DNA of 49,256 nucleotides from Candidatus Methanoperedens nitratireducens (GTDB lineage: Archaea; Halobacteriota; Methanosarcinia; Methanosarcinales; Methanoperedenaceae), in assembly GCF_000685155.1 (NCBI RefSeq), contig NZ_JMIY01000004.1, positions 15,136-64,391 of the forward strand, read 5' to 3'. Below are positions 39,783 to 46,132 of this stretch, piece by piece. A program made the translations under genes and the position numbers. Numbering within the stretch: position 1 is the first letter of the stretch; the number at the start of each line of letters is the position of its first letter. A model generated the notes under the pieces. It searched no databases and was not told the origin of the DNA. It saw nothing but the letters and a program-made list of their open reading frames with translations.

Positions 39783-40922
39783 TCACACTATCTGGTCTAT
39801 TATTGAGATATTAGGCCCTCTTGGTATCCTGGATCTTCCAACGGGCACAGGAGAACCGGTGCGTGAAGATTCTTTAACTCTACTGCTGCCTGGCCCCATG
39901 ATCTGGGCTGATTTGATACCGGTCATTATAGCCATGCACCGCACTTTACTCTCGTAATCCTTCCTTACCCTGGCGCCCCAGATCACATTGGCATGGGAAT
40001 CAAGTTCGTAAGTCAGTGAAGATGCGATCTGTTCAGCCTCATGGAGAGACATATCAGTTCCTCCTGTGATATGCAGCAGACACCCGGTTGCCCCATTTGT
40101 GTCCACATCAAGCAGTGGATGGTTCAGTGCTGCCCTTACGACCTCTTTTGCCTTATCCTGCCCTTTTGCTTCTCCGACAAGCATTACAGCAAGCCCTCCG
40201 CCCTTCATTATAGCCCTGACATCAGCATAGTCAAGGTTGATCAACGATGGCTGTGTTATGGTTTCGGATATACCCTTTACAGTTTCTGATATCAACTGGT
40301 CCATTACCGAGAATGCCTGATCAATCGGAAGGTTTGGTACGTAATCCAGCAGCCTGTTATTGTCAAGTACAATGACTGTATCTGCTGAGTTCCTTAGATC
40401 ATCAAGGCCCTCTTCTGCTTTGATCATCCTTGCTCGCTCGACCCTGAACGGGCTTGTCACCATACCGATAACGATCGCTCCCTGGTCTTTGGCGATCTGT
40501 GCGACCACAGGAGCTACACCTGTTCCTGTTCCGCCGCCCATACCTGCGGTGACAAATACAAGGTTTGCGTTCTTCAGTACCTCTTCAAGCGTTCCTCTTG
40601 CAAGTTCAGCAGCTCTCTTTCCGACCTCAGGGAATCCGCCTGCCCCGAGTCCTCTTGTCAATGATTTACCTATCAGGATCTTCTTATCCGCCTGAGTGAT
40701 ATCAAGGTGGATCTTATCCGTGTTTATTGCGATCGTATCTGCGCCGGCTACGCCTATGTTGTATAGGCGGTTTACTGTGTTGTTACCACCGCCGCCGCAT
40801 CCGACCACAACGATCTTTGGTGTCCCGAAATCTTCAACCTCGTCCATTGCGCCTGTCGCAGCTCTCTTCAACTGCTGTTCTTTTTCTGCCATTTTAAGAG
40901 CATCTTGTACAAATGATTCCAT
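39783..40922 (-). CDS. ftsZ: cell division protein FtsZ
   Basis: Tubulin-like GTPase that polymerises at the division ring. Seen: [13 protein letters not shown] nucleotide-binding loop at 41-53, NTDKIHL, the GGGTGTG signature at 129-135, [13 protein letters not shown], and the T7 synergy loop NLDYAD at 229-234 supplying catalytic aspartates; N-terminal extension of ~35 residues and a basic, SIIDQIV-ended tail. 379 residues is standard. Strong ribosome binding site gaggggatg. The gene starts 20 bases after a ribbon-helix-helix regulator gene, the same order as cdrS-ftsZ2 in haloarchaea. Whether this is FtsZ1 or FtsZ2 is not settled here. Confidence 0.95.
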
Positions 40923-40942: not shown

Positions 40943-41173
40943 CTATTGTTCGTCCTTTAAGCGCAGGAAGCTATCAGCATTTTTTGATTGTTCTTGCGCT
41001 TTCTCGAATAGTTTTATCCTGCCGACCAATTTTTCACTTCTCTGATCGATCAAGTCCCTTATAGCCGTCCTGATTGCTTCACTTGCGGACGGAAATTCAC
41101 CATACTCGACCAGCATATCGATCATTTTTAATTGCTGTTCCGGGAGCCTAAGTGTTATTCTTTGCATTTGCAT
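40943..41173 (-). CDS. ribbon-helix-helix regulator, CdrS-like
   Basis: Small DNA-binding protein. Seen: RHH beta strand QRITLRLPEQQLKMIDMLV then GEFPSASEAIRTAIRDLI, the classical RHH N-terminal strand and two helices, followed by a charged tail. In Halobacterium the RHH protein CdrS is co-transcribed with ftsZ2 and controls cell-division genes; this protein matches in size, in the GEFPxxSEAIR motif and in gene order. ATG 41173 is preferred (gggagat ribosome binding site 8 bases upstream) over the frame start at 41251, which lies inside the operator. It precedes ftsZ by 20 bases. Confidence 0.85.
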   Translation of the reverse strand: MQMQRITLRLPEQQLKMIDMLVEYGEFPSASEAIRTAIRDLIDQRSEKLVGRIKLFEKAQEQSKNADSFLRLKDEQ

Positions 41174-41219
41174 TCTTGGTATCTCCCTCGGCAGTAGACA
41201 TATACCTGTACGCCTCGTA

Positions 41220-41273
41220 TCAGACACTTGTCTGACATTTGTCTGACACATGTATTACACTATACTATATAAG
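41220..41273 (-). promoter_or_regulatory. operator and TATA box of the cdrS-like/ftsZ operon
   Basis: TATA box: ctatataag at 41265-41273 (minus strand cttatatag). Operator: tcagaca (41220-41226), ct, tgtctga (41229-41235), and another tgtctga (41240-41246) exactly 11 bp on. The predicted transcription start, about 26 bases from the TATA centre, is near 41243, inside the operator, so a protein bound there would block initiation. The 11-bp phasing puts sites on the same helix face, as RHH dimers prefer. Leader of about 70 bases to the ATG. Confidence 0.65.
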
Positions 41274-41388: not shown

Positions 41389-43287
41389 ATGCAGATTCTA
41401 CTTATCCATTCTGATTATATAGAGTACGAAACAAAAAGAAGCACACCGGTTGCTGAAAAAATAGAGGACAGCCTCAAAAAAGGACGCATGGAAGAAGCTG
41501 TGGCTGTTTTTGTGGCGGTCGAGAGAGATGATGAAGGAAATATTGAATACGCAACCTGTAAAGCTTTTGAGGAGATAAAAAAAGTCGCAGAGCAGGTTAA
41601 GACGAATCGTATAATGCTCTACCCGTATGCACATCTCAGCTCAAGTCTAGCATCCCCGAAAGCCGCAGTTGATACACTAAAGAAACTTGAGGGATTGCTT
41701 AAAGAAGCTGAATTTGAAGTAAAACGTGCACCTTTTGGCTGGTACAAATCCTTTACTATAAAATGCAAGGGGCATCCCCTATCAGAGCTCTCAAGAACAA
41801 TACGGGCAGGTGAGAAAAAATGCGCAGCAGTAGTAAAGGAAAAAGAGGAAGTGGTCTCAGAGGCATTAAAATCCGAGGCAAAGGCAACATCGTACTGGTA
41901 TATATTAACACCACGGGGAGAACTAATAAAACCCGATGACTTTGATTTTAGCGGACACGGTAATCTTGCGAAGTTTGTGAATTATGAGATCCATAAGAGC
42001 AGGGCAGTTGATAAGATACCCCCGCATGTAGAGCTTATGAGGCGGCTTGAACTTTCTGATTATGAACCTGGCTCTGATCAGGGGAATATGCGTTTCTATC
42101 CCAGGGGAAGATTAATGAAGAGCCTGCTTGAGAATTATGTCCTGGAAGAGGCTGCAAGGAAGGGGGCAATGGAAGTCGAAACACCCCTGATGTATGATAT
42201 GAACCATCCCACACTGAAGAAATATCTTGACCGTTTCCCTGCCAGGCAGTACTCAATAGAAGCTGATAAGAAGCAGCTTTTCCTGAGGTTTGCGGCATGC
42301 TTTGGCCAGTTCCTTATGAACCATGACATGACCATATCATATAAGAACCTCCCGCTTAAGATGGTTGAGCTTACCCGCTACAGCTTCAGGAAAGAGCAAA
42401 GCGGGGAACTTGTGGGGCTGAGGCGGCTTCGGGCATTCACCATGCCTGATATGCATACGCTCTGTAAAGATATGGATGAGGCGATACGCCAGTTCAATGA
42501 GCAGTACAATATGTGTATAGATGTACTCTCAGACATCGGTTTAGACCTCTCAGATTATGAGGTAGCTATCCGCTTCACACGGGATTTTTATGAAGAGAAT
42601 AAGGATTTCATAGTCGGGCTTGTAAAGACTGTGAACAAACCTGTACTGATAGAGCTCTGGGACCAGAGGTTCTTCTATTTTGTCCTCAAGTTCGAGTTCA
42701 ATTATATTGATGCCATGGACAAGGCAAGTGCACTTTCTACAGTCCAGATCGATGTCGAGAATGCTGAAAGGTACGATATAAAGTATATTGACCCGACAGG
42801 AGAGGAAAGAAGGCCGCTCATCCTGCACTGCTCACCGAGCGGGGCTATTGAGAGATGTATGTATGCACTTCTTGAGAAGGCATATATGAATTCAGAAAAA
42901 GGTATCGTCCCCATGTTCCCTGTCTGGCTCTCCCCAACGCAGGTGCGCATAATCCCTGTTACACAGAAGCATATCGAGTATGCCGAAAAAGTGGCAGAAG
43001 GGCTGGACTGCAGGGTAGATATTGATGACCGGGAAGAGACAGTGGGCAAGAAGATACGCGATGCTGGAAAAGAGTGGGTCCCGTATGTCGTGGTTGTTGG
43101 TGATGAAGAGGTAAATAGTGGTAATATCACTGTTACGATCAGGAGTGAATCATTACCCAACAAACCTGCAAATGTAAAGATGACCGTACAGGAACTCAAT
43201 GAGAGGGCATCAGATGAGATCTCCGGTCTCCCGTACAGGGGACTCGCACTTGCGGCCCGGTTATCTGCAAGGCCGAGATTTATGTAA
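41389..43287 (+). CDS. thrS: threonyl-tRNA synthetase, archaeal type
   Basis: Charges tRNA-Thr and removes mis-attached serine. Seen: N-terminal D-aminoacyl-tRNA-deacylase-like editing domain (residues ~1-140, starting [16 protein letters not shown], with [10 protein letters not shown] and APFGWYKSF) that replaces the bacterial editing domain; class II catalytic domain with [35 protein letters not shown] (motif 2), and [13 protein letters not shown] (motif 3); C-terminal anticodon domain with [14 protein letters not shown]. 632 residues is full length. ATG 41389; upstream aaagtgataga contains a gtga ribosome binding site. Confidence 0.96.
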
Positions 43288-44745: not shown

Positions 44746-44993
44746 TAAAGATTGGTATAGAGGACAATGCCACATTTGGAACACATTATCAGTATGGTGA
44801 AAACCCAAAAAATGAGAGTGTAACTGTACAGTTTAGCGTGTATGAAAAAATAAACAATGTGAATATAGAAATTCTTTTTTCTGATGGAATGTGGTTCACT
44901 AGGATGGAAAATGAATAAATCGTGGGCGATATTGCTGAATTAAATAGAGATGCCTATATAGAAGCGTTCAAGGAAAAATTAGTTAAATCATGA
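44742..44993 (+). pseudogene. broken gene fragment between glmM and tnpB
   Basis: From TTG 44742 an open frame encodes GIEDNATFGTHYQYGENPKN, then VTVQFSVYEKINN and SDGMWFTRMENE to an in-frame TAA (44916-44918); reading past the stop continues IVGDIAELNRDAYIEAFKEK to TGA 44991-44993. The text looks like the end of a soluble protein interrupted by one nonsense codon. Family not recognised. The final TGA overlaps the tnpB ATG. Probably the decayed host-side gene next to which the TnpB element landed. Confidence 0.5.
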
Positions 44994-46132
44994 AACTTTC
45001 TATTTACGCTAAAAACATGAAGAAGCGATATAAACAGAACAATCACGGGTCAATGAGGCGTACATCACGGATATATCTGAATGACCTTAACAAATCGAAA
45101 TCCGATACAATGAGAGTGTTCCTTAATTTATATCAAAACATAATCAACTACTGCATCTGTCTTTTCTGGTCAGCATCCGACTTCACGGAAAATTTAGCAG
45201 ATAAGGGCATAACTAAATCAATAGAGGAACGATTTGGAGTAACCGCAAGATTGAGCCAGTGTACATCGAAACAGGCTAAAGAAATAGTCCGCTCGCAGAT
45301 GAAAAAAAGTAAAAGGTCTCAAAGGATGCCGAGATTTAAATCACATATGGCTAACCTGGACAGCAGGTTTGTGGAGATAGAGAAATTCAACGGTCATTTC
45401 GAGATTTGCATTAAAACAGGTTCTGGTGTACCAAAAATGGTAATTCCATTCAACTGGACTAAACATACAAACAAATTCAGGGATAATGGCTGGACGTTAT
45501 CTAACTCGGTGCGGCTCGGTTATGATAAAAAAGGAATATTTATTGATCTAATTTTTGAGAAAGAGAAAACCCCATTAAGGCAGGAAGGCAATGTCATGGG
45601 AGTCGATAGGGGATTCAACTGCATGATAGCATGTTCTAATGGACAGATGATAGGAAAAGGACTGAAAGAAATAATCAAGAAGGGTGGAAAAAGAAGAAAG
45701 AGTTATCATCATTTTATAGAGACAGAAACGAACAGGTGTCTTAAGCAGTTAGACACCGACAACATCAAACTTATTGCTCTTGAAGAACTCAAGAATGTAA
45801 AAGCCAATAAGCGTGGAAAGTTTTCACGTAAAGTTAACAGGCTTCTATCTTTTTGGCATTATGCCAGGGTCGGCAAACGATTAGAACAGCTTTGTGAAGA
45901 GAAGGGGATATGCATAGCACATAAGAGTCCTTGGAAAACTTCGCAGAGATGCTCTGTTTGTGGCAACATCGATAGAAGAAATCGCAAAGGTGAGAGGTTT
46001 TTGTGTCTTAAATGCGAATCTGAAATGAATGCAGATTATAATGCATCCAAGAATCTTGAACTTCTGGGATTGGCGGGAGTCTATAGTCTCCGTTCACTGA
46101 CAAACAACTTTGTGGGGAATAAATCTCTATGA
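44990..46132 (+). CDS. tnpB: TnpB, RNA-guided nuclease of the IS200/IS605 group
   Basis: OrfB-type transposon protein related to Cas12; in studied relatives a small RNA-guided DNA nuclease that helps maintain the element. Seen: N-terminal helical region, RuvC-type catalytic D206 (GVDRG), E265 (LEEL) and D349 (NADYNASKN), and a zinc finger C321xxC324...C339xxC342 just before the last RuvC block. All key residues are present and 380 residues is full length, so the product could be active. No tnpA transposase is adjacent; the guide RNA, normally overlapping the 3' end of the gene, was not delineated, and element ends were not found. Confidence 0.9.
   Translation: MKLSIYAKNMKKRYKQNNHGSMRRTSRIYLNDLNKSKSDTMRVFLNLYQNIINYCICLFWSASDFTENLADKGITKSIEERFGVTARLSQCTSKQAKEIVRSQMKKSKRSQRMPRFKSHMANLDSRFVEIEKFNGHFEICIKTGSGVPKMVIPFNWTKHTNKFRDNGWTLSNSVRLGYDKKGIFIDLIFEKEKTPLRQEGNVMGVDRGFNCMIACSNGQMIGKGLKEIIKKGGKRRKSYHHFIETETNRCLKQLDTDNIKLIALEELKNVKANKRGKFSRKVNRLLSFWHYARVGKRLEQLCEEKGICIAHKSPWKTSQRCSVCGNIDRRNRKGERFLCLKCESEMNADYNASKNLELLGLAGVYSLRSLTNNFVGNKSL

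Follow-up and report, generated by a model that had tools for sequence, protein, structure and literature searches.

The closest described systems are the haloarchaeal CdrS-FtsZ2 system and a set of small RHH proteins that control their own genes. An RHH dimer reads a short palindrome by placing a two-stranded sheet in the major groove, and dimers on adjacent subsites bind cooperatively (PMC5569661), with RelB providing an example of binding to neighbouring subsites (PMC2812701). In Hbt. salinarum, the cdrS-ftsZ2 promoter is bound by CdrL, and loss of cdrS results in less ftsZ2 transcript (PMC7439475). ChIP-seq of H. volcanii CdrS yielded a symmetric motif and 18 sites, including ftsZ1 (-50), dacZ (-47), threonine ammonia-lyase (-95) and psmB (proteasome), while the organism's own cdrS promoter was not among them (PMC8406309).

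We analysed a stretch of 49,256 nucleotides from Candidatus Methanoperedens nitratireducens (the window). The original prediction had three elements, all supported here: an RHH regulator resembling CdrS, its operon with ftsZ and, where transcription is predicted to start, a phased operator. Along the minus strand, the TATA box (41272-41265) comes first, followed by the repeats (41259-41207), the Shine-Dalgarno sequence (41187-41181), the RHH gene, a 20-base gap and ftsZ. The gap matches the stated length exactly, with the last base of the RHH gene at 40943 and the first of ftsZ at 40922. The features are as follows.

39783..40922, minus strand: ftsZ, FtsZ2-type (the copy linked to cdrS), matching TIGR00065 with 412.8 bits
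40943..41173, minus strand: cdrS-like RHH gene of 76 or 74 amino acids, with its ATG at 41173 or 41167, matching PF01402
41181..41187, minus strand: cdrS Shine-Dalgarno GGGAGAT, from the sequence and kept in relatives
41207..41215, minus strand: putative operator box 5, AGGCGTACA, degenerate, from the 11-bp register and kept in close relatives
41218..41226, minus strand: putative operator box 4, TGTCTGATA, from the sequence and a genome search
41229..41237, minus strand: putative operator box 3, TGTCAGACA, perfect, from the sequence and a genome search
41240..41248, minus strand: putative operator box 2, TGTCAGACA, perfect, where the transcription start is predicted
41251..41259, minus strand: putative operator box 1, TGTAATACA, degenerate and closest to the TATA box, from the 11-bp register and relatives
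41265..41272, minus strand: TATA box of the cdrS-ftsZ promoter, TTATATAG, from the sequence and kept as TTTATATA in relatives

The RHH protein matches PF01402 (RHH_1) with 28.1 bits, above the curated cut-off of 20.5, and NF058555 (NCBIfam equivalog TransRegCdrSHalo) with 60.6 bits, below the cut-off of 100. Because it falls below this cut-off and NF058555 is a haloarchaea-restricted CdrS model, we refer to the window protein as a CdrS homolog and not as haloarchaeal CdrS. An open reading frame start at 41251, which runs through the repeats, is an unlikely gene start, with the Shine-Dalgarno sequence and the starts in relatives favouring 41173 or 41167. The Shine-Dalgarno GGGAG has its full five-base complement a few bases upstream in 19 of 24 non-redundant Methanoperedens leaders (background 6%), usually as CUCCC-ACA-GGGAG just 5' of the ATG (for example in loci L007, L017 and L019). 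This small hairpin could sequester the Shine-Dalgarno sequence, and the window subclade (41181-41200) retains four of its five pairs.

The gene for ftsZ directly follows cdrS in 174/174 testable loci, and the window pair is co-directional and presumably co-transcribed. The window FtsZ shares 67-74% identity with cdrS-linked FtsZ proteins from other families and 41-51% with unlinked FtsZ paralogs; for haloarchaeal FtsZ, the identity is 67-68% to the cdrS-linked copy and 47-48% to the other copy. The window's own genome has four further FtsZ homologs (C7:698562, C1:472747, C8:59082 and C5:183936), three of which are just 41-44% identical, and each of the 11 other genomes searched has two in all, the cdrS-linked copy included. 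Elsewhere in the window, a plus-strand open reading frame (44990-46132) is probably an IS200/IS605-type gene, as by eye it carries TnpB/transposase-like C-terminal zinc motifs (SQRCSVCG...CLKCESEMNADYNASKN).

The repeats had been described as an inverted repeat with a third half-site 11 bp away and a TATA-like box, and all of these are present, with TCAGACA at 41220-41226 and TGTCTGA at 41229-41235 and 41240-41246. While the half-sites are real, the repeating unit is not a half-site pair; the layout is instead a tandem array of five palindromes with an 11-bp period. The five 9-bp boxes run in register on the minus strand from 41259 to 41207 with 2-bp spacers, reading TGTAATACA-tg-TGTCAGACA-aa-TGTCAGACA-ag-TGTCTGATA-cg-AGGCGTACA. 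Each is an exact or degenerate form of the odd palindrome TGTCNGACA (consensus TGTCWGACA), two being perfect (TGTC-A-GACA) and the remaining three degenerate. The array spans from just past the TATA box into the cdrS leader, and by the usual 25-bp rule from the TATA box, transcription would start at ~41243, in box 2. Since a single TGTCTGA occurs at chance level in the window (7 against 6.6 expected), the half-site alone is not usable as evidence. A two-box search with TGTCNGACANNTGTCNGACA, however, gave three overlapping matches in the 3.2-Mb genome, all in the array, with no other match anywhere in that genome at two or fewer mismatches. The locus has the layout of RHH tandem-operator autoregulation, in which palindromes recur as subsites at a fixed interval across the promoter of the regulator gene itself.

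Conservation of the half-sites in related genomes had been put forward as the check on this layout, and the outcome was strong: the array precedes cdrS-ftsZ in Methanoperedens, ANME-2a/b, GoM-Arc1, Methanosarcinaceae and Methanomicrobiales. The cdrS upstream regions were taken from 30 relatives, order-level families and other phylum families, plus 80 further loci, and relatives' genomes were grouped according to their gene content or the contigs they have in common with the 80-locus set. From these, 84 non-redundant promoters (<80% mutual identity, haloarchaea excluded) were scored for boxes that match GTCNGAC with no more than one mismatch, giving 351 boxes against 44 ± 6 expected from dinucleotide shuffles. 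Within promoters, 505 of 656 box distances are exact multiples of 11 (shuffles: mean 1, maximum 5, n=200), a shuffle figure that is not a probability, as the 84 promoters share descent. Judged from these promoters, the 11-bp spacing has persisted even though the sequence has turned over completely between orders. Averaging the units gives ATGTCWGACAW. Phase relative to the TATA box is likewise restricted, with 239 of 329 boxes in four of the eleven possible phases and the first box ~11, 22, 34-35 or 46 bp from the TATA centre, depending on the clade. The longest arrays, in ANME-2a/b, reach nine consecutive 11-bp units directly 3' of the TATA box. Between the TATA box and the box array, f16 loci (for example L098-L103) carry a conserved stretch, GTAGGATTCATCTGCT.

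We consider it likely that 41207-41259 is a multi-subsite cdrS-ftsZ operator, on which CdrS dimers would bind cooperatively and repress their own operon. One dimer would occupy each 9-bp palindrome TGTCWGACA and, as the 11-bp step is approximately one helical turn, the dimers would sit side by side on the same face of the DNA, where neighbours would touch and bind cooperatively. Repression is proposed from the position of the array over the predicted start and leader, where full occupancy would obstruct the initiation complex or early RNA polymerase; as a general statement, archaeal regulators sited over the start usually repress (PMC8406309). From this position, self-repression is the best inference, and CdrS would limit the synthesis of both itself and FtsZ, a negative feedback on the division protein. 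The Methanomicrobiales geometry differs, in that the array starts ~34 bp past the TATA box and lies wholly within the leader, so that there elongation, not initiation, might be the step blocked, although a roadblock is still compatible with it.

The sign of control is where the repression model meets counter-evidence, as the lower ftsZ2 transcript on cdrS loss in Hbt. salinarum suggests activation, albeit from a cdrS promoter with different boxes. The array could accordingly be a CdrS operator that acts positively, or as a dual-sign homeostat in which low CdrS helps and high CdrS blocks, with the number and strength of boxes setting the threshold. In line with this, ftsZ2 is under positive control by CdrS in Hbt. 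salinarum, as ftsZ1 probably is in H. volcanii, and box quality is uneven along the array, with a degenerate box closest to the TATA box in the window. We regard positive or dual control as rather unlikely, since the presumed activating haloarchaeal sites are upstream of BRE/TATA, whereas the window boxes are all downstream, over the start.

Self-repression also presumes that CdrS is the protein that binds. These genomes encode other RHH proteins, and psmB, a ChIP target, has no convincing paired site in the promoters of the haloarchaeal genomes tested, which counts against the link to CdrS. A different DNA-binding protein is nevertheless improbable, because the array and cdrS occur together and are absent together among the relatives, and because a paired box, GTCNGAC-N4-GTCNGAC, is found at haloarchaeal CdrS ChIP targets. 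This pair is present in 5/6 haloarchaeal ftsZ1 promoters (10-12 of 12 positions), -62 to -66 from the ATG and just 5' of BRE/TATA, which would put it at ~-50 from the transcription start, as published. It is also present in 6/12 haloarchaeal dacZ promoters (10-12 of 12 positions, ~-60 from the ATG), a count that takes in L215 with one particular start. A blind search for the exact pair in seven haloarchaeal genomes returned 27 sites and none when the pattern was reversed; downstream of these sites lie, among others, ftsZ1 (four), threonine ammonia-lyase (one) and CetZ (one, L186). The DNA-reading strand is R-T-R in CdrS of both the window group and the haloarchaea, and in the window protein these β-strand residues are predicted to read the DNA. 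The paired box at published targets and the common R-T-R strand are independent lines of evidence that point to CdrS as the protein tied to the box.

In four of the seven haloarchaeal genomes (L176, L181, L184 and L199; weak Pfam support), a paired site also precedes a gene for a bactofilin-like, polymer-forming cytoskeletal protein, and in one genome each it precedes Mch (L182) and an apparent S-layer glycoprotein gene (L198). Together with CetZ, these are candidate CdrS targets.

Outside the haloarchaea, nearly all of the pairs found are at cdrS. Across 60 relatives, we found 23 GTCAGAC-type pairs with at most one mismatch, of which 22 are at cdrS and one is inside a coding gene. Those f3 and f5 relatives that lack a close CdrS have no box pairs beyond this single coding match, and for the matches in family f9 (L129-L135), a script search gave no CdrS-pattern protein. 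In the searches made of methanogens and ANME, there were no clean paired sites away from cdrS. We also considered whether CdrS controls further genes in the window's lineage and rejected this, as relaxed two-box searches gave just chance-like or coding matches outside cdrS. No CdrS relatives were found in viral contigs.

It is very improbable that the repeats act in the mRNA leader, through RNA structure or translational control, and not as DNA sites. In favour of a leader role, most of the boxes are 3' of the predicted start, and the Shine-Dalgarno hairpin is common in Methanoperedens leaders. However, in Methanoperedens, ANME-2a/b and some Methanosarcinaceae the first boxes are already 5' of the predicted start, the haloarchaeal ftsZ1 and dacZ copies lie upstream of the TATA box and outside the transcript, asymmetric box variants are found in either orientation (30 vs 10 and 36 vs 7), and the 11-bp period and phase to the TATA box are helical properties. 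Control of the divergent thrS (41389-43287, plus strand), which shares the intergenic region with cdrS in the window, is largely refuted by synteny and can practically be dismissed: thrS is the upstream neighbour of cdrS in 22/46 Methanoperedens loci, 0/39 loci in three other Methanosarcinales families, 0/16 haloarchaeal loci and one locus elsewhere, and as it is not kept with the array, the array belongs to cdrS-ftsZ.

The haloarchaeal analogy drawn in the original prediction holds for the linkage of an RHH gene to ftsZ2, but does not transfer directly, as CdrS is absent from its own promoter in H. volcanii and the Hbt. salinarum promoter is bound by CdrL, a protein that the window's relatives lack. 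We searched 40 of these relatives, the window's own genome included, for CdrL (CdrL_M, PF24252) and found none, with the H. volcanii control positive. None of the 16 haloarchaeal cdrS promoters has the array; all 16 carry GTAAGAC/GTCTTAC-type pairs instead, 13 of them at 11-bp spacing. These pairs adjoin cdrL in the four loci inspected (CdrL_M was recognised in the one tested), and the reading strand of CdrL is K-T-R. A joint reading, which we offer tentatively and with slightly less than even confidence, is that the array represents ancestral archaeal cdrS-ftsZ2 control, with CdrS once governing just itself and FtsZ. Haloarchaeal CdrL would then have captured the promoter (GTCNGAC to GTAAGAC, one base per box; R-T-R to K-T-R), while the CdrS paired box would have spread upstream of the TATA box at ftsZ1, dacZ, cetZ and others, so that a repressor limiting itself became a global regulator of the activator type.

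To our knowledge, how FtsZ levels are set in archaea is poorly known outside the haloarchaea, and not known at all in anaerobic methanotrophs, of which there is no pure culture yet. In the literature searched, we found neither an array of this kind nor any account of CdrS control in methanogens or ANME. With a defined and conserved operator, self-control by CdrS is directly testable in cultivable relatives (Methanohalophilus, Methanocorpusculum and Methanoregula), and the array offers a DNA signature for locating CdrS targets in other genomes. CdrS and CdrL would also make a clear-cut example of how regulation is rewired between RHH proteins, testable by base and residue.

Compared with the haloarchaeal CdrS-FtsZ2 system (PMC7439475, PMC8406309), the window locus has the same small RHH gene directly before ftsZ2, the same R-T-R strand and the box that recurs in paired form at published CdrS target promoters. 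It differs in that its array is longer, at CdrS's own promoter and downstream of the TATA box, whereas the haloarchaeal cdrS promoter has GTAAGAC boxes and is CdrL-bound (Hbt. salinarum). CdrL is similar as an RHH regulator of the cdrS-ftsZ2 promoter whose presumed boxes are mostly 11 bp apart, but is distinguished by its K-T-R strand and its absence from the window's relatives. The operators of Arc, MetJ, CopG, RelB, F55 and SvtR differ in sequence, and most comprise two to four subsites. Arc, MetJ (met boxes), CopG, RelB (PMC2812701), archaeal-virus F55 and SvtR (PMC5569661) are, like the window protein as we predict it, small autoregulating RHH proteins with repeated short subsites, one dimer per palindrome and cooperative spread over the promoter. 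Unlike these, the window-type array is built from the 11-bp unit TGTCWGACAWA in up to nine copies, precedes a cell-division operon and is conserved across archaeal orders.
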